Of a stretch of DNA of 64,000 nt, positions 5,241 to 48,200 are shown one piece after another (the stretch's first letter is position 1; the number at the start of each line of letters is the position of its first letter). The position numbers were made by a program, and so were the translations under genes. The notes below the pieces were generated by a model. That model did not search any database, had not been told where the DNA came from, and was given only the letters and a program-made list of their open reading frames with translations. The stretch comes from Anthopleura xanthogrammica. Lineage: Eukaryota > Cnidaria > Anthozoa > Actiniaria > Actiniidae. Location of the stretch: the NCBI GenBank assembly GCA_964019055.1, contig OZ025221.1:8028468-8092467 (forward strand), given 5' to 3'.

Positions 5241-6115
5241 TTTTATCATATGACCACATATAAAAAATCGATTTCAAAGCGTTTTTAATAAATGCGAATC
5301 AAAATGCGTAGTTTTTACATGATTGACGGCAGCGAGTCCGAACGGCGAGTCCGAACGGGAAATTATTACACTTTTCGGAAAAGCGTACTTTGTTTGCTGA
5401 CGACATTTTCCCCAAAGGTTTTTTTTAGAATCACGCGTACAGTGAAATACGGTCATATGATAATATTTATTTATGCGCGTTTAAAAGGGGTCAATAGTTC
5501 GTATTCCGTGTTCCGTATTAAGTTAACTGAATCTCAATAGCTTAGATATTTGGCTAAAATGCGCGCAAGATTAGCGCGCGCGGTTAGTCCGACTTGCATG
5601 GCAAGTTTAGTTTAGCCCTGTAAAATATTATAAAAACGACAGCAGGTAAAATATTTCCTTGTGATATTCAATAATCTGACAGGACAGGTTCGCATCAAAT
5701 TGCCAACCGAATTCCTAGAATCAACGCCCACGTATTCATATTCAGCCACACAGATTAAATGACTAATTTCCTAGAAATGGTATATCAACCAAGGTCATTG
5801 CCCTAGAAATGTCTCTTGTCTGGCGATATGTCACACGAGACAATTTGCAACAATAATTTTTCGCAGCGAAGTGTCCGACTTCTTTCATTAAAAATCACGA
5901 AAATCGAGACATGGCTAGAAAGTTATGATGTTTCCAGCAGGCAGTCTTGTTTTAGAAGTCCTAGCAGCGAACGCCTGGAGCTACGCAAGCATAAACAACT
6001 CTTCAGATGAGCTGGAATCGGGACCAACTGAGCGCCAAATTCATAGAATTTACTCTGCGTGACATTTATGCGCTGACTCCGTATGGGCTCCATAGCTTTT
6101 CGCTTATGCCTAGAA
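5241..6115. other. Intergenic DNA, no gene seen
   Basis: The sequence between the palindrome and the long-TIR element contains only short open frames without recognisable protein features. Confidence 0.4.
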
Positions 6116-30114: not shown

Positions 30115-30948
30115 TCATTCTTGACTTGATTCCTGCAACGAAGAAATGAAAAAAATATGGTCAGTGTAAAATTCAAAATGGCGGTCAACAAATACATCAA
30201 CTTTATTACAAAATAGCCGAATTTCCCATGAGCCTTTGCTCTTAGTCACGTGTCATATTTCATGTGTTTTGGTTGGTTTCTTCGTGGATGATATTTTTTC
30301 CTGGCTCATAGTTTGCTGCTAAATATTTTGGGAATTTTTGAACACTTCATCATACATCGTTTTTATACTTACCCGTTTGCCTCTGATGTGGAAGAACGCG
30401 GGCTCAGTTAAGTCTACCAGTGGAGGATATTCTTCTCGTTTGCCTCTTATATGGAAATAGGCTGGTCCTCCCAAGAAAGGAGGTTGTTTAGCAACTCGTT
30501 TACCTCTGATATGAAAGAACGCGGGCTCGGTTAAATCTATATAAGGTGGACCCACATCTCGTTTTCCTCTGATATGAAAGTAGGCTGGTCCTCCTAAGAA
30601 AGGTGGTTGCTTAGCAACTCGCTTGCCTCTGATATGAAAGAACGCGGGCTCAAGTATTTCTTCATACGGAGGATTTTCTTCACGTTTTCCCCTGATATGG
30701 AAAAAGGCTGGCTGTCCAAAAAATGGTGGTTGCTTAGCAACTCGCTTGCCTCTGATGTGAAAGAACGCAGGCTCAGTTAAATCCACCAGGGGTGGACGGT
30801 TTTCTTCACGTTTTCCCCTTATATGGAAGTAAGCAGGCTGACCCAGGTCTACGATTGGTGGGAATTTTGCTTCTTTCTTTTCATTTGTTGCTATGACGAC
30901 TGCGATAAGCAGAGCGAAACTTAGAACATGTAGAGAGAATCGGCTCAT
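30115..30948 (-). CDS. HIRamide-type neuropeptide precursor
   Basis: Coding exons are 30948-30373 and, by inference, 30132-30115, giving 197 aa. The signal peptide is MSRFSLHVLSFALLIAVVIA. Eight copies of PA[FY]FHIRGKR follow. In each, Gly supplies the C-terminal amide after cleavage at Lys-Arg and carboxypeptidase trimming, so the released peptides end in FHIR-amide. Acidic-spacer copies (DLTEPAFFHIR) mostly alternate with VAKQPPF-spacer copies (GPAYFHIR). The Glu/Asp and X-Pro residues preceding the active part fit the unusual N-terminal processing described in cnidarians. Peptides with HIR-amide ends have been reported from sea anemones (recalled, not checked). A perfect donor (CGG/GTAAGT at 30372) joins to TTCGTTGCAG/GAATCA, ending ESSQE-stop. 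Without that splice the frame would run 17 codons further, to 30319. An acceptor CTCTTCAG lies 10 bases upstream of the ATG, so the 5' UTR is split. Confidence 0.93.
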
Positions 30949-30958
30949 ATTTCGATTT

Positions 30959-32187
30959 CTGAAGAGAAAAACAATAAAGCAATATTCATTAAGTGGGCTT
31001 AAAAGAAAAATAATTTTGATAACAATTTACCCGGCAAAAACATCTTCAGTTTTATTAATCTTTAGGGAAGCGTTTGAAGATGAGAGTTTATCTTTGAAAA
31101 CCGGTTATTCGTCACTAATGGCTGCTTGAAAGCATCTCCACGAACAAACATGTTTCAATCTTATCGATACACTGAAACAACCTCTGGGCTTATCAAAGTC
31201 TGGGCATGGCTAACTCACGCATCCAATTGGAATTAGCGTGTTTGGTTTTGCGTAGAGAGCAAAACCGGGGAACCCGGGGAAAAATCCTCGAATCTCGAAG
31301 GGAGATTACTAGCAAACTCAGCTCGCATCAGATGATGCTTGAGGTTGGCAAATGGGTTAACAATGGTCGACTTTCGATATTATGGTTGAGTGATTACGTA
31401 CGAAGCAATTCATGGCGAGGCTCCGAGGAAATAAAAGAATATATTAGGATTACTTCATTGCTTTCCCGGAGCCTCGTCTTGAATTGCTTTGTGTGTGATC
31501 ACTCAACCAGAATATCGAAAGTGGGCTATTGACCAAATAGCAATACAACCCAGCCCCGCATAAAGCGTGTTTTTTAAAATTGATATTAAAGAAATAGAAA
31601 CTATGCCAATCAAAATTAAATGTCTGACAGAGTACATTTAAAGGTTTTGAAAGCGATATGAATCCATTACAATCATATAGGTTTTGCTATATGACATATT
31701 TGTAAAAACAACAAAACGAGGCTAGTCAGTCCAACCCTCAAGTTTCCAGTTGAATCTTCTTTATGTTATAGCCAAATTTTGAGCTTTCTAAGACTGTTAT
31801 TTATGTGGGGTTTTTGATGGCAATGTTTGTATAATTTATTGTTGAAATCTTTAGTATGGTCGCGCCATATTTCGATTTTAGAATGAAAATAAAATTCAAA
31901 GAGTGCATCGAAAGAAAATAGCAATTTTTTTTATCAGGAAATCGAGAGAAAAACGTAATATTTGGGTGAAAAAAATTATATTTTTTAACAAACTTTGGTC
32001 GAAATAGCCATGGGTAATTTTGGACAAGGGACGAAAAAAGTTATGTAGTAAAAAAAAGCAATGGATGCTGCCATTTATGATTCAAAATTCTTCGCTAAAA
32101 CTAGAATAATACTTCTACAATGATACAAATTTAAAAAAAACAAGAAACTATTTTTAATTTTAGCTGAAAATAGTTAAACGCTTTTAC
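30959..32187 (-). other. 5' UTR intron of the neuropeptide gene
   Basis: The inferred intron lies between the noncoding first exon (donor AAG/GTAAAAG at 32188/32187) and the coding exon (acceptor TCTTCAG at 30959-30961). It contains a palindromic MITE (31368-31524), one inverted unit of the dispersed 58-bp repeat (about 31170-31216) and a SINE-like fragment (about 31245-31320). No other gene is visible. Confidence 0.55.
31368..31524. repeat. Palindromic MITE
   Basis: The arms ACTTTCGATATT.TGGTTGAG (31370) and CTCAACCAGAATATCGAAAG (about 31501-31522) extend inward through GGCGAGGCTCCG and CGGAGCCTCG. The element sits in the 5' UTR intron of the neuropeptide gene. Confidence 0.7.
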
Positions 32188-36726: not shown

Positions 36727-37842
36727 TTACTTGCAGACGGTTCTACATTTTCTCAGTGTTTCAAAGTTGTTCTCGTTCCCACCACATCCAGTGTATGTGA
36801 ACTCAACACACTTTTCCGTGTCTTTGTCATAGAAATACCTGGAAAACCTTTCTTTGCAATGGCCCTCGTCCTTAGGGAGTTGGCAGTGTTCCCTTGTCTT
36901 TCCACCCAGGGATAGCTGTACACCTTGAATTGAATTTAAAGCAAGTAAATTGAAATGTCATGAACTAATGAGTTCGAGTTCGAGTTCAAGTCCATCGATT
37001 TCTTATTTCTGCGGCCCACATGCCAACAATTTGAGCATCATTTATTTCTTCGTCGGTAAAACGTACAGTACTTTGTATAGTAAAAAGTGAAAAAATGAGG
37101 TCGATGAACTTAAAAAAAGCACCGTGAAAAGTAGGAAAGCGAATAAAACATAGTTAAACTTATGAAAGAATGAGAGTAATTTTAGTAATTTTAATTTAGA
37201 ATTGGGAACAAAAGAAAATAGAAAGGCAAATAAGACGAGACAAGGAAATGAAGACCAGAGCCATTTTCCAACTCCTTAAGGATAAAAGGAAAGTAACACG
37301 AATGTAAAAGAAAGAATATTGAGGTTGTGACAATTAGATGAAATCAGATAGAACATATAGAAAATAGGGATAGAAAATGCTAGCGGCTTCATTCCCAAAA
37401 GATACAATGTCTAAGGCTGGGTTCATATGGTACTGGACGGATTTTTAACCGTACAAATCTTTGACCAGTAACACCATTTACACGAAACTAGGCCCCAAAT
37501 TTGCTCTGCTAGGCGTTTGAATTCTTGTCCAGATAACACCTCAGAAAACGTACAACTTTTTGAACGGTTAAAAATTGTATTAAAGGCACATTAACGACGT
37601 ACTCGCCAGTAGCTCAGTGGTAGAGCGTCCGACTAGTACACGGATGGTCGTGGGTTCGATTCCCATCTGGGGCTCAGAATGTTTTAGTGGAAACCCAACC
37701 AGAGTTCAAGACCTGATGTCAATATTCAAGTTTTCTAGTTTAGTAATTGTTATAATACTAAGATATTTAAGTTTCTTGAAAACAAAATTAAAATCAACTC
37801 ACATGCAAAAAGCAGAAGTGTCACCAAAACTATTCTTTTCAT
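36727..37842 (-). CDS. Secreted single-domain Kunitz protein
   Basis: Two exons (37842-37803 and 36923-36727) join in phase 1 to a 78-aa preprotein. Exon 1 encodes the signal peptide MKRIVLVTLLLFAC; exon 2 encodes one Kunitz domain with six cysteines in the usual spacing and the GCGGNENNFET signature. The likely P1 residue after Cys2 is Lys (GHCKERF), compatible with trypsin-like protease inhibition. In cnidarians the same fold also serves as venom potassium-channel blockers, and the sequence alone does not separate these roles. A second GT (TAAG/GTAAG) lies directly after the stop, so an alternative 3' exon is possible. The intron holds a MITE relative and, on the plus strand, a tRNA-like element. 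It is the downstream member of a three-gene Kunitz cluster on this strand. Confidence 0.87.
37411..37577. repeat. Diverged relative of the 25.1-kb MITE
   Basis: It begins CTAAGGCTGGGTTCATATGG and shares ACTGGACGGATTTTTAACCG and GGCGTTTGAATTCTTGTCC with the element at 25109-25319. The right arm is incomplete. It lies in the intron of the single-domain Kunitz gene. Confidence 0.5.
37603..37673 (+). repeat. tRNA-like element (SINE head or tRNA pseudogene)
   Basis: It contains a good A box (TAGCTCAGTGG), a good B box (GGGTTCGATTCCC) and a loop with anticodon AGT, which would read threonine codons. The acceptor stem has mismatches at positions 1 and 3 and the anticodon stem is imperfect. A functional tRNA gene is therefore less likely than a tRNA-derived repeat. 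It lies inside a Kunitz intron on the opposite strand. Confidence 0.5.
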
Positions 37843-39282: not shown

Positions 39283-42200
39283 TTAGATAAAGTGAACTCG
39301 GCACCCTATCAGGCATTCATCCTTGGTTTCGAAGTTGTTCTTGTTTCCGCCACACCCGCCATAATCAAAGGTCTTGCATTGCTTGGGACCGTTGTCATAG
39401 TAATATCTGGTGATTTTTTCTTTGCAAGGTCCAGTCGCGGGAGAGAAGAGACAGAAGCCTTTGCCTAGGAAGTATTCAAATAACAGAACTTAATTAGATT
39501 AGCTACTGGAGCTCCCGATTCTAATGGCTGACAGAGATGTGTGGAGAAAGGTTGTACTTGCAGTCTCGCTGAGGCTGAAGGATGAGGAGGAGGAGTAGGA
39601 GGAGTTACTGAATGGATAGATGGAAGAACGATTAAAGATGTGAATGATAAAGAAATGCATCGGAGATGTGTGGAGGAAGGTCGTACTTGTAGTCTCGCTG
39701 AGGCTGAAGGATGAGGAGGAGGAGTAGGAGGAGTTACTGAATGGATAGATGGAAGAATGATTAAAGATGTGAATGATAAAGGAATGCATCAGATGTGTGG
39801 AGGAAGGTCGTACTTGTAGTCTCGCTGAGGCTGAAGGAGGAGGAGTAGGGGGAGTTACTGAATGGATAGATGGAAGAATGATTAAAGATGTGAATGATAA
39901 AGGAATGCATCAGAGATGTGTGGAGGAAGGTCGTACTTGTAGTCTCGCTGAGGCTGAAGGATGATGATGATGAGGAGGAGGAGTTACTGAATGGATAGAT
40001 GGAAGAATGATTAAAGATGTGAATGATAAAGGAATGCATCAGAGATGTGTGGAGGAAGGTCGTACTTGTAGTCTCGCTGAGGCTGAAGGAGGAGGAGTAG
40101 GGGGAGTTACTGAATGGATAGATGGAAGAATGATTAAAGATGTGAATGATAAAGGAATGCATCAGAGATGTGTGGAGGAAGGTCGTACTTGTAGTCTTGC
40201 TGAGGCTGAAGGATGATGATGATGAGGAGGAGGAGTTACTGAATGGACAGATGGAAGAATGATTAAAGATGTGAAGGAATAAGAGAGGGCAATATGTGAA
40301 CGAATGATGAAGGAATGTATATGACTGGTTAGATTGATTGATGAATGAATGGATAGATGGGATGGAACAGATTGATAGAATGAATGAATTCGATGGATGA
40401 GTGAATGGGATAGCTGGATGGATGGATAGGAGTGGATGGGTGGGATAGGACGAATGAATGGATGGGATAGGCAGATGGACGGGTGATGGGATAGGTGGAT
40501 GAGTGGATGGATAGGATAGATGGATGGATGGATAGATGGATGGAAAAAGGTGAATGGATGGATTAGCTGGATGGATGGATAGAATAGGATGGATGGATAG
40601 GATTAGTGAATAGATGGATGGATGGAAAAAGGGTGAATAGATTGGATAGCTGGCTGGATGGATGGATTGAAAAAGGGTGAATGGATGGAATGAGTGGATG
40701 GATAGGATAGAACAGATGGCTGGGATCTGAAATAGGAACCATAGACGAGCGGAATACATCACCCCTCAATACTTACCCATACATGCATCCTTGCATTGTT
40801 CTCTTGTTTCAAAGTTGTTTGCATTTCCCTGGCAGCCGGTGTAGTAAAACCTCTTACAGCTGTCTGCAGCTTTGTCATAGTAGTATCTTTCGATGTGCTC
40901 TTCACAGTTACCGGCAACCATGGCCTTGCTGCACCTCATCCTATCATCTTTGCAGTTGACAATAGACGAGTCTATCAAACAAACGGAAATTGCTTCACTT
41001 AATATTTATATGCATAGCCCATGTCAGCTGATGGCTCTTTTTGTATGTGCAAGCTATGTTTAGGATCCATTGCCTGATTTCATACCGTGAGGGCCTGGGT
41101 ACGAGTTCCTAAATTTTGATGATGACAACACAAAACTCCCATATCGAGCTCTACAAAATTCCCAAGTTTGCACGGCTGTTTCATTTCAAAAGAAAGTGGA
41201 CATTAGGTTCCAGGCTCTCCAGCGCACGCTTTGCACGGTTGATTTTCATGAAAACGAGGTTTCACTTACCGAGTTCGACCCGTCGAGTTGAGTTTTAAAA
41301 GGGTTGTAAAAAATAGCGTTATTTTGCTTCTTCAAATCGTAAAGTATACATTTACTCTCAAGAGAAGTTTGCTATTTATCATGAAAGTATATCTGAAGAG
41401 TTGGAATGTCGATTTTCTACGAAAAAAGTGATTTTATGGGATTAAGCGAAGAGAGCTTCGTTGACGACAAAAATGGCGGCTTGGACAAATGAGCTTCAGA
41501 AGCATTTTAAAGCAGAGAATAAATCGAACTTAGGAAGTTTTTCATGAGTCAGGTGAGTGCACTTTTAATTCAATACATATTTCTTTCCATAGTTCTTTCA
41601 ATATTTTAGTACTAACTATTTTTTAAGAAGGTAAAATTAAGTTTAATTTGTAGCTTATAATTCGAATAGTTGATCGATCAAAAGAGCATGTTTGTCCATT
41701 TCTGATCTTTAGACTATAATGTATGTGGTAGCTAGAAATAACATACTTGATTTATTGGCACATTAATAAGAGGTGGCCTGATTGCATTATTGTAAAGTTT
41801 GGCCTTTGATAACACAGAACCAGCTGCTTTAAATCTTTGATTGTCTTCATGAAGCATTTTAACTGTTCTAGGTGGACTTGCTTTTCTCTCTGACTTTGGT
41901 ATGGCCATTTCATATTGTGTAATTATACACCAAAGGCAGCAGTGTCTTCCTAAAAAAACAAACATTTAAATCAATCAAAACCACATTTTATATAAATTTT
42001 GTCAGATTTTGGACAATACACAGAACTTTTTAATTTTTTCCTGTCATGCCAACCACTAAATACAACTAAACTTTCCTTTTCATAGAATATTATCTACTTA
42101 CCACTTGCTCCAGAAATGCCATATAATGCACACAGAAATGCATAATCACCAAATACAAAGAGTCTGATAGACCATTTCCTGTAGGAAAAATCAGGTTCTT

Positions 42201-45200
42201 AACAAGGTATGCTATTTCCTGTTAAAGGGCATACATCTATATGTACAACAAAGGCAACTAATAAGGCCAAATGCTCAGTGTTAATTCTAATAGAACAACC
42301 TAGAAATAATAGCAATATTATTTAATGACATCATACCCCCACTTAGCTTCCTGTAGAGAATCAAAATCACTGATGTAGCGTTGTAACCCAAGATGTAGGT
42401 TGTGAGGGTTGTCTGGTGCCTCAAACATGGAAAAAACTATGGTATTCCTTGTGGAGTTGGGGTTTTCAGTATTGGCTATTTCAAATGCCATCTTGAAACT
42501 GCCACCTTAATATAATAAAATATACACACAGTATAAGGTTTTCATCACCTGTATTAAAATTATTGAGGTGAAATCAAGACTACTAAGTGCTTTTACTCCG
42601 ACGAAGTAAAATTTAACTTTTTATCACAACTGTTTCATTAGAAACACCGACACAGCCCACACTAGCTTACCGCTAGTTATCATATCACTACTAAGGATAC
42701 ATAAGTTTAAACGGTTTGCTGAAGTAGTTATCTGGGATTTTATTTACCTCCCTTATCCCCTCCAATCTTTAGCCATATTTCATTTGCTGGTATTAAATTG
42801 TCATGCCATGTGAGTCTTTGATACCTAAAACACAAAAGCATTCACACTTTAATTTATGCATTGTTATGAGTGTTTGCATTGCCTATAAAAGCTTTTGAAT
42901 GATTGTCAATAATAACTAAAACTTATTACTTCTTGTTCTCTTCCAGATGACCATATATCAAGGCCTTTAGGTTGGAAACTTGGGCACAAACTGCCAAACG
43001 AATTTCAGTTTTCTCTTTGGCTTTAGAGAATACAAAGGGCATGACATCACAGCACACCTGTGTACAAAAGATAATGCTTATGTATTACATCCAGAAATAC
43101 AGGTATTGTAAAATGGAAGTGAAAGCTTTTGACTAACTTCGTCAAACTTGTGATCCTTCGCAATAGATCTTTGCTTTTTTTCACTGGATAGCTGGACACC
43201 CCAACTTGATAACCACCTATAAGAATTTTAATTTATATTAACTGTTGCAAAACAACTTCAATAAAACTTCAATATTACTTGATATACATAAAGTCCACTG
43301 ATAAGCTGATTTTTCAGAAGTACAATTCTACTAACTAGTACTGAGACCATTGCTTAACCAACCTTCGTATATGCTGCATTTTGTTCCAGGGTATCCCAAG
43401 GTCAGACTTCATTGCAAGGCCTTCATCAGGTGGAACTTCCAAGCTCAATCCAGCCTGAGGAATTTATAGACAAATAAACTTTATTAAGCATGCCTATCTC
43501 TTTGCAACTTCTGATTTAATTTGTAATACCTACCTCTTGAACAATTTGTTGCCTTTCCTCTCGACCAACTCTTCTCAATTCAGACAATTGTTGAACCGCA
43601 AAGTCTTCATCGGATCCACCACTAATAGCATGTCTTACTTTCTCTGTTGCAGAAGCCCTCCGCTGAACTGTTTTTAGACTTGCCTCTGAACTGTTTTTGC
43701 GAACAGAGCTTATGATAGAAAGCTTGAGGGGCTAAAAGCAATAATATTGAAAATGATCCAGCATTATGAAAGAAATGTTAGTCAGAATTGAGAAAATTCA
43801 TTTATATTTTTGGATTGGGGGAGGATTGTGGTTTTGGGTAACATGTGTCAAAAATTTTACATAACCCCCTTTGTTTACACATTTTTTAAACCTGACCCCT
43901 CTCTACATATATATACTTTTCAATTGACCCCTCCCCCTCAAAAATGGCAGTGCATTACTGTTGTTACTGAGAATTATGAATTTTATAAAACGATGAAAAA
44001 AACCCTGAGAATAATTGGGTCATAAGTTTTCTATTTTTAAGATAGTACTGGTTTATAGAGCTCTAATTTGTGACGTGTCTGAATCGAATTATTCGTGAGA
44101 GTGACTAATTATTCTAGGCCTATATAATGTAGTGGTAATCTTAACTCTACCCACCGTTCCTCCTGTTTTCAGAACAACTTGAGATGACTTTGCCAGTTGA
44201 AGTTTTCTTTTCATTAAATGTGTAGTTACTGTCTCTTCAATAGTTGAAAGGGGTGTGGTAATAGGGGTATCATGAACTTGGGTCAGGGGGATGCTGCATG
44301 GCTGGGCGACATAATTGCTACACTGGTTTTCGTGGGACTCTAATCGATCAAGGGGAACTGCAGACTTGCACGACACGCACGTTACACAGAGTGAACCCAA
44401 AATGCTCAAGAAAACTCTAGGAACTTTGGAAAGGGTCGATGCTGTAATTACTTGAGTACAAACGGGACACTTGGAACTTTCACCTGTGTGTTCCAGCCAG
44501 GCACGTATGCAGTTGTAACAAAAGTAATGTTGGCAACTTGACTGTACAGGCCGCTCAAAAATTTCTTTGCATATACAACATACAAGGTCTGCAGGTGGAT
44601 TTAAGAATCGATTGATTTCCGGCATGACGCTGATTATAGGAATTGGCACGATTGCACTAGATATGTTTATAACATTGACGGTTTCTGCATGATTCGGCAT
44701 GGTAGATTTCTTTGGTCTGCCCCTTCCCATAGTACCTTTCCGTTTCCTCCCTCCACGTTGGTCCTTGTGGAATTTCTCACATGTACAACAGTAATGATCT
44801 TCATGTTTTTTCCAATTGAATGCTTCCATGATGGTATTGTAAGCTGGATCTCTTTGGCCTTTCATGCATTTTGCATAACAGTTGTTGCAAAGTTTTGTAG
44901 GGTGGATATTGGGATCGTCATTCCCAACATCCACCCCAAAAACTTGCAAAACTTTATTTCCTAGGTCGTTATCATTCAGGTTATATTTGTACTCGGTGCA
45001 TTTCTCTCCCTGGTAAACACCGCAAACTCTACACGTTTTTTCGAGGCAAGCCAGGTGAAAAGCCAATGTTGACATTTTCTGAAGTATTATAATTGAAACA
45101 ATAGAAAAAGGGTTTGAAAAAGTGCTTATAAGTTGTTGAGAAAAATAGTTAGCTCTAAAATATTGGCAAATACTTAAAATACATCATCATTAATTAACGG

Positions 45201-48200
45201 AAAAGCCTTACCGTTTATCAGAAAAAGTTCCGGTGGTTATCTAGAGGGCGCTTCAAATTGCCGGTTTTAGGGAAAAAAGTGAAAAGACGTAAGACGATCG
45301 TCTGAAGTATCGGACGTATTTCTGAAATTTTACATATTGTTATCGAAAAAAAACTGATTGAACGAGGAAATATTTCGTATATGAAGGTTCATAAGGGTCT
45401 TTTTTGATTACTTGTAAAGTGAAGTGGCTAATTTAAGCATAAATTAACCAAAAAAAATATTTCAAGTTTGCCGCCATCTTGGTTGCTACGGCTTCATTTT
45501 TGCATAGCAACGAAATATGACCGCGCGGTAGCCTGGAACCTAATGTCCATCGTGAAACATACGTGTTTGGTGTAAATCGGATCAATATTGAACGACTTAC
45601 AGACGTTCAAAAACGTTAGAATTTACAAAGAAATGTATGGTGTCCGGACACAATTTCCGGACACCATACATTTCTTAGAAGTAAGTCGTTCAATATTGAT
45701 CCGATTTACACCAAACTTGGGAATTTTGTAGAGCTCGATGTGCTCTTTCTGATTATGGGAGTTTTGTGTTGTCATCATCACAATTTAGGAACTCATACCC
45801 AGGCCTTCAAGGTATGAAATCAGGCAATGAACGACTAACCAGCGATCGGTGATTACACGACAGAAAGGAATTGTGGGTAATAAGAATGTCTTCATTATTC
45901 ACATCTTAAATACCTAAACAATAATGCCTCCACCATTCAGTGAAAACCTTAGATGACATTGTGTAGGTATTTAAGAAATAAATACTATGAAAAAATTCTT
46001 ATTAACCCACATATTCTTCTGGTATTGCAATCCACAATAACCGATCGGCATTCGCCCATTCAACATTTTTTGAAATAGCTGTAGACTATCACGACAGATT
46101 GCAAAACAACGAGTTGAGAATGAATAAAGTGCTCGGGGGATAACTTAGAATGGCCCCATCACTAATAAAACGAATTAACGTAGCCAATCAGAATGCACAA
46201 TTTCTAGATAATAACATTTTCAATGGACTCTAAAAATAGATTGAAAAGTTCAAGTTTAATCGCAAAGCTTCATGGGATTGAAATACAGACAAACACATAG
46301 CTTTTGCGTCCACCTTGTAAACTGTAAAGAATAATGCAGAAAATCCATAGTTTTTTGTCGAATGGTTTAGAAGTCAGCCCATAGAAAAGCTCTCCAAACA
46401 AATATTCTAGTACAAATGACTATCCAACTAATGGCTTAATGGCTTCTTGTTATTGCATTTATTCTCTTCCAACACATCTAAAGTGCTTGTTATTTCATCT
46501 TATTTTAGTCCCACACAGTGGCACAGCGAGAAAGGGCGAGGGGGGGGGCACCTCCCCTAAAATTTTCGGATCGAGCCTTTTTTCTTAGATGTATAATGTC
46601 AATGCCACTAGCATAGGGAGGGGGGGCAGGCACGTGCTCTTTCCACAAATTTTTGGTAATTAGTTTTTTATTCTAGGTGCCCCCCCCCCCCCCCCCCCCC
46701 CAGATCCTAGGTCCTCGCTGCGCCACTGGTCCCACACCGCGAGCAAAAATCAAGAATCGAGACACACAATGAGCCTATTATTCATTGTATTTTATGTTTC
46801 TGACTAAAAATAGCTGATACTGTCTCCTTACTACGTGTTTGTTATCATCCTCTAGAAAGACCCTTCACCTTGAAAGAGGAATCCAGTCATAACAATAACA
46901 GATTCAAACGCTAGACGTAAGAAAAGCTAGAAAAGCTATCTTATTATTGAATTGTTTTCATTAAATTGTTTTTCAACAGAGTTCGTTATTAAAAATGCTG
47001 CATAGGAATAAGGTTCATTGGTTTTAAACCTGATTTTTCGTGATAAATTTGTCAAAAATCGAATTCGTTTCTCTTTGCTTTGGCCTTTCGTTTACCTAGC
47101 ATTACGTCACTGCTGGATATCTCCACGTGACGTCATATCCGCTTAGCATATTAGCCAACATGCGCGCACACTAGTAACATTGCATCCCCACCCCTCTCCT
47201 CCCTTAAGGGAGATTCTTACTACAAAACTGGTTGCTTCAGAAACAAGACATAGATTTTGGTATACCTTTGTAATATAGTTCTAGACTTTAATTAATTATT
47301 ACCGTTATATGTTATTATACAAAACTGGTTGCTTCAGAAACAAGACATAGATTTTGGTATACCTTTGTAAGATAGTTCTAGACTTTAATTAATTATTACC
47401 GTTATATGTTATTATACAGTTATCCGACATGCACGCAAGTGGACAAACACTGGCTAAGATTATAGGTTCTCCAAATGTCTCGTATAATATTGGTAGAAGG
47501 AAAAAAAAGAATCATTTCTATAGAGAAGCAATTAGGCTCCTATAGACTAGTTTAAGAGGAATGCTGCCCATTTTAGGAAATACCTTCACTTCAAAAACAA
47601 GAGTTCTATTTGGAAAACAATTGGGTTTCCGTGAATAGATATAATCACTTTGGAAATCGTTTTAGAGGAGACGTTTACTCGTGGAAAAAAAAAGAGTTTG
47701 GAAAACAATTAGGTTTCTATGAAAAGGAATAGCAAGTTTGGGAGCAATGTTTCCAATTTAAGATAAAACGTTTGCTCGAAAATAAGAGGTTTCTTAGAGC
47801 TTCATTTATGAATTTTTCTAAGTATTCGTGTTTTTCAGTTATTCTGGAATAACATTACATAAAGATTTCAAAGTAAGAGTTCTTTTTGAAAAACAGGAGT
47901 AGTTTCCCATTTAAGACAAGATGTTTGCTTGATGAAGATAGTACATACACATGGAATCTTTCTGATTATTCTTATTATTTCCAGGTATTTTTGGACTACA
48001 AGTAGATATTATAAAAGTTTTCTTTCTGCTTTCAATTAAAAGATAAGCAAATAACCCTTAATATTGACTATGGAATTCATATTTATCCTGTTCAAGGTCC
48101 TCTTTAAAGGGGCACTTAAACTTATCTATATGGACCCAATAGTAGCCAAGAAACATTTTCTTCACAGTCAAAATTTGCGGATAAAAATTTTTTTTTTTTT

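Follow-up and report, generated by a model that had tools for sequence, protein, structure and literature searches.

What kind of mobile element has settled beside two Kunitz-domain exons of the sea anemone Anthopleura xanthogrammica, and how does it relate to RAG1, the enzyme that cuts antibody genes? The locus lies in a 64,000-nucleotide (nt) stretch of contig OZ025221.1 (the window), where a first-pass annotation had described a transposase resembling the RAG1 N-terminal region between terminal inverted repeats (TIRs) at 41068 and 45831. Our analysis indicates that the element is very probably a recent, non-autonomous cut-and-paste transposon of the Chapaev superfamily, of the type that carries a Chapa zinc region and a RING, inserted in a miniature inverted-repeat transposable element (MITE) beside the Kunitz exons.

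The borders came from a search of a 290-Mb genome (designated G000; C2, C3, C7, C10 and C21 are its contigs) with window positions 41068–41268. The query splits: 43 of 48 matches cover only its positions 1–103 (window 41068–41170), and positions 104 onward (from window 41171) recur at four other places with 100% identity. The inverted repeats at 41068 and 45831 are therefore assigned to a host MITE and the element itself to 41171–45565, a length of 4,395 bp with ends CACG...CGTG. The matching inverted repeats previously noted do exist (76 nt, 95% match), but they are the arms of a palindromic MITE that hosts the nested element. Leaving aside the window's own right arm and merging pairs, the outer repeat occurs at at least 34 other genomic places, at at least 8 of which both arms are present in opposite orientation, 271–496 bp apart; these counts are lower bounds, as 40 of 113 candidates were scored. 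This family, represented in the window by 41068–41170 and 45570–45831, thus occurs elsewhere without the gene, the very observation that the annotation had named as contradicting its own borders. The flanks read AAGTTTG-element-TTTGGTG, and the empty site, AAGTTTGGTG, is found in paralogous element-free copies of the MITE and in its own second arm. The genome search that had been proposed with the TIRs thereby yielded other copies and settled both the element ends and a 4-bp target duplication. An element spanning 41068–45831, bounded by the outer TIRs and carrying an intact RAG1-like transposase, has next to no probability left: the outer repeats are long and matching, but they are MITE arms, the empty paralogous sites already refute such an element, the inner ends are found at four places, flanked by 4-bp duplications, and the frame is without exons 10–15.

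Within these ends, nine minus-strand exons joined across GT–AG introns encode 652 amino acids. Splicing and Pfam bear out the annotated frame with its paired zinc motifs, C3HC4 RING, two Asp motifs and CLWC. RAG1_imp_bd (PF12560) scores 25.6 bits (cut-off 23.3) and the RING 31.9 bits (cut-off 21); DUF1280 also exceeds its cut-off. The zinc finger that follows the RING was named by no Pfam model but is visible by alignment to RAG1. The AT-hook stands less firmly, since GRGRPKK resembles one by eye but no Pfam AT-hook matches the product at E ≤ 1. What fails is the label "transposase" for this copy: about 3 kb is deleted, including the H(4)H motif and the catalytic Glu region, with the C(2)C motif retained. 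Because exon 10 is deleted, the frame reads into intron 9 and ends VCYF followed by a stop, and because the catalytic Glu region is gone the copy is not a complete transposase. Without this Glu and H(4)H, it cannot be expected to cut. The 652-residue product, if made, would retain the zinc/RING region and might serve as a competitor.

The other copies of this family (family A) account for the truncation. Exon 1 is found at five further places, at 99% identity in four and at 86% over half its length in one, and each of the four copies that retain both ends is flanked by a perfect 4-bp duplication (TTTG in the window, CTGT in C3, GGGC in C7 and TCCA in C2). The C3 copy aligns ungapped over 4,395 bp with 14 mismatches (99.7%), the C7 copy has the same ends with 15 mismatches and a 32-bp gap (98.9%), and the window, C3 and C7 copies share an identical deletion junction inside intron 9. 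The 7,037-bp C2 copy (L031) has about 3 kb extra at this junction, comprising exons 10–15, six exons that are collinear with those of a complete relative, family B, and that include GLLGEQGVEAIHHE. It has itself lost parts of exons 4 to 6 and has Q in place of the first H of H(4)H, and no intact family-A copy was seen among the genomic copies found. Because three copies share the deletion, we infer that the window copy is a young, non-autonomous internal-deletion derivative that was mobile in trans after the deletion arose; a full-length A or B enzyme would have moved it. It is improbable that the truncated frame has instead been selected as a repressor or a domesticated host gene. The deleted form has multiplied and the frame is open in the C3 copy, as such selection would have it, but C3 differs by six nonsynonymous versus three synonymous codons, with no constraint visible, part of exon 9 is lost in C7, and the copies are too young to tell.

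Table 1. Features of the element, its host MITE and the adjoining exons, in window coordinates
Feature	Position	Strand	Basis
Chapaev element, family A, internally deleted copy, 4,395 bp	41171..45565	-	same-end copies at C3 and C7; duplications
Exon 1: zinc motifs (Chapa / RAG1_imp_bd), basic stretch, RING, second zinc finger	44155..45075	-	splicing, Pfam, RAG1 alignment
Exon 2	43534..43731	-	splicing; conserved in family B
Exon 3	43363..43454	-	splicing; family B comparison
Exon 4	43138..43216	-	splicing; family B comparison
Exon 5	42930..43057	-	splicing; family B comparison
Exon 6, first Asp motif GGDKGG	42748..42824	-	splicing; family B comparison
Exon 7	42337..42505	-	splicing; family B comparison
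Exon 8, second Asp motif GDYAF	42102..42178	-	splicing; family B comparison
Exon 9, CLWC; frame then runs into intron 9 (stop 41732-41734)	41747..41949	-	splicing; comparison with sister copy
Junction of ~3-kb internal deletion (exons 10-15 gone)	41700..41701	-	comparison with C2 copy L031
Long end (gene 3' side): CACGGCTGTTT + 19 nt + CATTAGGTTCCAGG, block nt 31-44	41171..41214	+	end comparison
Short end (gene 5' side): CACGTATGTTT + 9 nt + CATTAGGTTCCAGG, block nt 21-34	45532..45565	-	end comparison
Target-site duplication, left copy TTTG	41167..41170	.	flank comparison and empty paralogous MITE sites
Target-site duplication, right copy TTTG	45566..45569	.	flank comparison
Host MITE, left part (earlier left TIR)	41068..41170	.	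inverted repeats, genome matches, empty sites
Host MITE, right part (earlier right TIR), outer boundary approximate	45570..45831	.	inverted repeats, genome matches, empty sites
Kunitz exon downstream of insertion	40769..41005	-	PF00014, 69.9 bits
Second Kunitz exon	39286..39489	-	PF00014, 68.3 bits

Across exon 1, family B first appeared as seven matches of equal score at 44% identity. Its element is about 6,421 bp long, the copies compared are 99.84–100% identical over their aligned lengths, and copy L034 has an open frame of 974 residues in 12 exons. The hallmarks of Chapaev include a 3- to 4-bp target duplication, CAC/GTG ends and the C(2)C, LH and H(4)H motifs (PMC4079192), and Chapaevs with Chapa and RING, among them those of the lancelet and the starlet sea anemone, were published in 2015 (Kapitonov and Koonin, PMC4411706, citing Kapitonov and Jurka 2007). 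The duplication is present in four of four A copies and in three of five distinct complete B insertions (TAGT, CCTA and CCAA), 5'-CAC...GTG-3' ends in all ten complete A and B elements read, and the three motifs in family B as CLWC, GLHIS and HFLEDH, alongside the candidate catalytic residues GGDKGG, D572 and E921. In both families PF12560, which served as a stand-in for the Chapa model, and the RING exceed their cut-offs, with Chapa preceding RING. Telling against the assignment, the other two distinct B insertions (L034 and L037) are without matching flanks. L036 and L042 (C2:1167400-1177300 and C2:2637000-2646900) were counted as one insertion; their identical flanks point to a duplicated stretch or an assembly duplicate. 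A 1,962-residue frame at C10:12160847 proved to be a stretch of N next to a truncated B copy and was rejected.

A Transib or RAGL (ProtoRAG-type) transposon, and with it direct kinship to RAG1, is very unlikely. The N-terminal region does match RAG1 first, and the unequal bipartite ends described below recall ProtoRAG and the recombination signal sequences (RSSs), but the duplication is 4 bp rather than the 5 bp of Transib and RAGL, PF12940 (the RAG1-type core) has no match at E ≤ 1 in A or B, and phmmer does not find the RAG1 core. PF12940 likewise had no match across the whole genome, where its control was also silent. Because no frame longer than 62 residues follows the B gene (element nt 5312) on either strand, family B has no plain RAG2-like gene, a statement that covers open frames, no profile search for spliced exons having been made.

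The likeness of the N-terminal region to RAG1 is supported and specific, closer than to other RING proteins. In searches against all solved structures, RAG1 was the best match in each of five cases: family A residues 42–249 (E 7.7e-11, with the match inside the first 250 residues), family B residues 29–260 (E 6.2e-15), sponge protein P0001 (E 2.5e-5), P0046 (E 4.4e-6) and a 29-protein profile, which matches RAG1 101–399 at E 2.3e-30 with all 14 best distinct sequences being RAG1. The profile comprises 24 proteins that are sponge by label, the others including P0003, which is near-identical to family B exon 1. Below the top of the single-sequence searches, RING ligases (BRCA1, TRIM31) are interleaved with weaker, shorter RAG1 chains. 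hhalign of RAG1 with the N-terminal regions (eight of the nine Chapaev regions) gives a probability of 99.5% and E 2e-22.

Relatives outside the anemone are mostly from a freshwater sponge. The window product retrieved 11 database proteins, mostly from Ephydatia muelleri, and a wider profile retrieved 94, nearly all named for that species or labelled "Em", which we take to mean the same. RAG1_imp_bd passes its cut-off in four of eight sponge proteins scanned (P0012, P0018, P0020 and P0045), falls below it in P0001 and P0016 and is missing from P0002 and P0007; four of the eight had been picked for an already listed match to this domain, and in a set chosen by the core it reaches E ≤ 1 in 3 of 17 members. 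Two further proteins, P0046 (984 residues) and P0038 (1028 residues), are full-length and Chapaev-like, with RAG1_imp_bd above and just below the cut-off, respectively. By title, we found no publication on a sponge Chapaev. Beyond the zinc fingers, a GGxP motif resembles the RAG1 nonamer-binding domain by eye, and RAG1 entries 6dbi, 6dbv and 3jbw align to the 29-protein profile as far as its position 380. The equation of this stretch with the nonamer-binding domain was rejected, a seven-sequence profile having found no RAG1 chain at E ≤ 10 (four matches, all to other proteins).

The catalytic core behaves differently from the N-terminal region, its match to RAG1 being weak. Searched with phmmer at E ≤ 1000, the RAG1 core matches none of 10 Chapaev cores, of which three are partial; at E ≤ 100000 four appear, all with negative scores. 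When a profile of 21 aligned cores (15 after hhalign's own filter) is aligned to the mouse RAG1 core, the three best pieces have P values of 0.12, 0.043 and 0.07 from N- to C-terminus, each with a probability of about 1% or less by the program's own estimate. These pieces do fall in one common order, and it is in them, weak as they are, that D708, C727, C730, H937, H942 and E962 of RAG1 meet D572, C591, C594, H895, H900 and E921 of family B, with D600 outside the pieces. Because six of the seven named RAG1 residues meet unprompted, the alignment argues for remote homology of the two cores, although each piece alone is weak and the equivalents in family B are weakly shown; the pairing of the B candidates D572 and E921 with D708 and E962 appears only in these pieces. 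In a profile search of the core, the best stretch of each RAG1 chain is the RING region or starts there (best 60 of 133 matches at E ≤ 10).

The two halves of the protein are unevenly similar. Of 15 pairs of Chapaev proteins, not independent of one another, 14 show higher similarity in the core than in the N-terminal region (P0002 and P0004, without a full N-terminal part, are left out). For RAG1 this is reversed, the N-terminal region being more alike to Chapaev than the core. With family B, the N-terminal region of RAG1 scores 59.8 bits, compared with 43.4 to 90.4 for other distant Chapaev regions, and with family A it scores 45.2 bits, compared with 42.3 to 78.1; with sponge and other database queries RAG1 ranks at or close to the foot of the list (lowest for P0038 and P0005). 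Over 265 kept columns RAG1 is 20–28% identical to nine Chapaev regions and distant Chapaev families are 20–33% identical to one another, which places RAG1 in the lower part of the Chapaev range. In a small tree of N-terminal regions its neighbors are P0046 and P0038, the support being weak (0.203 and 0.708).

Two views of this region have been put forward: that the ancestor shared by Chapaev, Transib and RAG1 possessed it, with loss in certain lines (PMC4411706), or that it was joined to RAG1 from an N-RAG-TP-like element (PMC8355894). The uneven similarity favors exchange of an N-terminal module over descent of the whole protein. Such an exchange between the Chapaev and RAG1 lineages is a fair possibility and not more, because zinc ligands are enough to keep such regions similar and the sample is small and includes no RAGL N-terminal regions. 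A mobile deletion copy like that in the window would then be a ready carrier of the module. The locus does bear on the origin of the RAG1 N-terminal region, as the annotation had suggested, but the Chapa and RING class is not itself new, having already appeared in print (PMC4411706).

A second point of contact with RAG1 lies in the element ends. Families A and B share a terminal CACG..TGTTT and an inner block, CAYTAGGTTYCA, and in all 10 complete elements (9 distinct) this block starts at nt 21 on the gene 5' side and at nt 31 on the 3' side. A genome-wide exact pattern, with gaps of 2 to 32 nt allowed (31 values), has 17 matches with gap 9, 12 with gap 19 and none with any other gap; the reversed control has none. 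These 29 matches come mostly from near-identical copies and represent five short and two long sequence-distinct ends. A looser pattern gives 34 matches, of which 13 have gap 9, 6 gap 19 and 15 some other gap; with 10 matches in its control, most of these 15 lie close to background. The sole near-miss to 9/19 that resembles a real long end is at C21:8677186, where CTGTTT and CATTAGGTTC lie 20 nt apart. In a remnant of a third family (L049, with coding sequence for LPGEQGIESIHSEF) the 3' side shows gap 19, and when gaps of 0 to 40 are allowed the best end has gap 9 in L028, L047, L048, L040 and L053, with N-terminal coding sequence adjoining the end in L028, L040 and L053. An A-type short terminus with the long spacing has no genome match by pattern. 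In the flanks L052, L040, L053 and L051, no opposite end was found for the L028, L040, L053 and L049 families. The regularity is not perfect: in L044 the best end combines gap 12 with a poor terminus (5 of 11 letters), and old copies have lost the terminal CAC (AAC in L049, CAT in L053 and GCC in L040). L028 (L050; C2:16314322) is a divergent relative with stops and 28% identity in the zinc/RING region, and its gap-9 end starts CACAGCTG, nearer the RSS heptamer.

In the 7+12 and 7+23 layout of RSSs (PMC8289069), the nonamer starts at nt 20 or 31, and the Chapaev block at nt 21 or 31. The unequal ends, one helical turn apart, would thus resemble 12/23 RSSs. A stretch rich in A within the long ends resembles the nonamer at 7 of 9 positions in B, 6 in L049 and 5 in A; it was rejected, 7 being reached by 5.5% of shuffled A spacers as well. 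In the mechanism we envisage, the core of the full-length relatives would cut at the terminal CAC and join the element to a target staggered by 4 bp, and a separate DNA-binding surface would grip the inner block, whose role is a guess. Given that the block sits deeper by one helical turn at the gene 3' end, we propose that the enzyme probably pairs one short with one long end, by analogy with the pairing of a 12RSS with a 23RSS by RAG. It is possible, though less likely than not, that the 21/31 spacing is plain inheritance without function. The families are all related, the sequence-distinct long ends number only three (A, B and L049) and the possible end at C21:8677186 has gap 20, as inheritance would allow; on the other side, seven sequence-distinct short ends keep 9 nt, and six different 9-mers vary widely (CACGATGGA, TGTTCTGGA, CACGTGCAA, CGACTACGC, CAGAGCGGT and CAATTCGGA), some sharing GGA. 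By title, we found no published description of unequal Chapaev ends, in a search whose coverage excludes Repbase Reports, the likeliest place. The combined proposal, that the N-terminal region of RAG1 is a module of Chapaev, passed into or out of the RAG1 lineage after the cores parted, and that Chapaev ends follow a 12/23-like rule, is put forward as tentative and is more doubtful than not. Chapaev ends and relatives bear on the origins of this region and of the 12/23 rule; the end asymmetry and the measured contrast between the protein halves are the parts that may be new, and family B, with near-identical copies and an open frame, makes end pairing testable at the bench.

Elsewhere in the window, the two Kunitz exons lie just downstream of the insertion on the same strand; the Kunitz intron that the annotation named as the site of the element is putative. 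Long GGAT-rich tandem repeats (39600-40750) adjoin these exons, a tRNA-Thr gene lies at 37603-37675 (+), and a serine hydroxymethyltransferase exon is present elsewhere, for which Nematostella vectensis (84%), Acropora palmata (82%) and Montipora capricornis (81%) are the closest named species among the best 120 of 8000 matches. A 235-residue open frame at 30319-31026 (-), with eight repeats ending PA(F/Y)FHIRGKR, looks like a neuropeptide precursor that would give amidated ...FHIR peptides.

The elements described here share with the Chapaevs of PMC4411706 and PMC4079192 the Chapa zinc region, RING, catalytic core, CAC/GTG ends and 3- to 4-bp duplication, and differ from published ones in that A and B are new families, the window copy is internally deleted and the ends are an unequal 21/31. 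The symmetric ends of most Transib families and the 27/31 spacers of ProtoRAG (PMC8289069) offer a further comparison. ProtoRAG and RAGL elements are alike in their unequal bipartite ends starting with CAC and in N-terminal zinc motifs, but differ in a 5-bp duplication, a RAG2L gene and these spacers (PMC8289069, PMC7204232); the same sources report that the RAGL of the cnidarian A. aurita has no RING region (ZDD), unlike the elements here. N-RAG-TP of Aplysia, compared by its description only, is likewise mobile, with RAG1 N-terminal-like sequence and without a full RAG1 core (PMC8355894), and the window copy illustrates one way in which such an element could arise. Vertebrate RAG1 has the same N-terminal order of zinc motifs, RING and zinc finger and, weakly, six of seven named core residues that align in family B, and is set apart by a core beyond the reach of phmmer; against it, family B has no RAG2-like frame, the duplication is 4 bp, and the Chapaev gene belongs to a mobile element.

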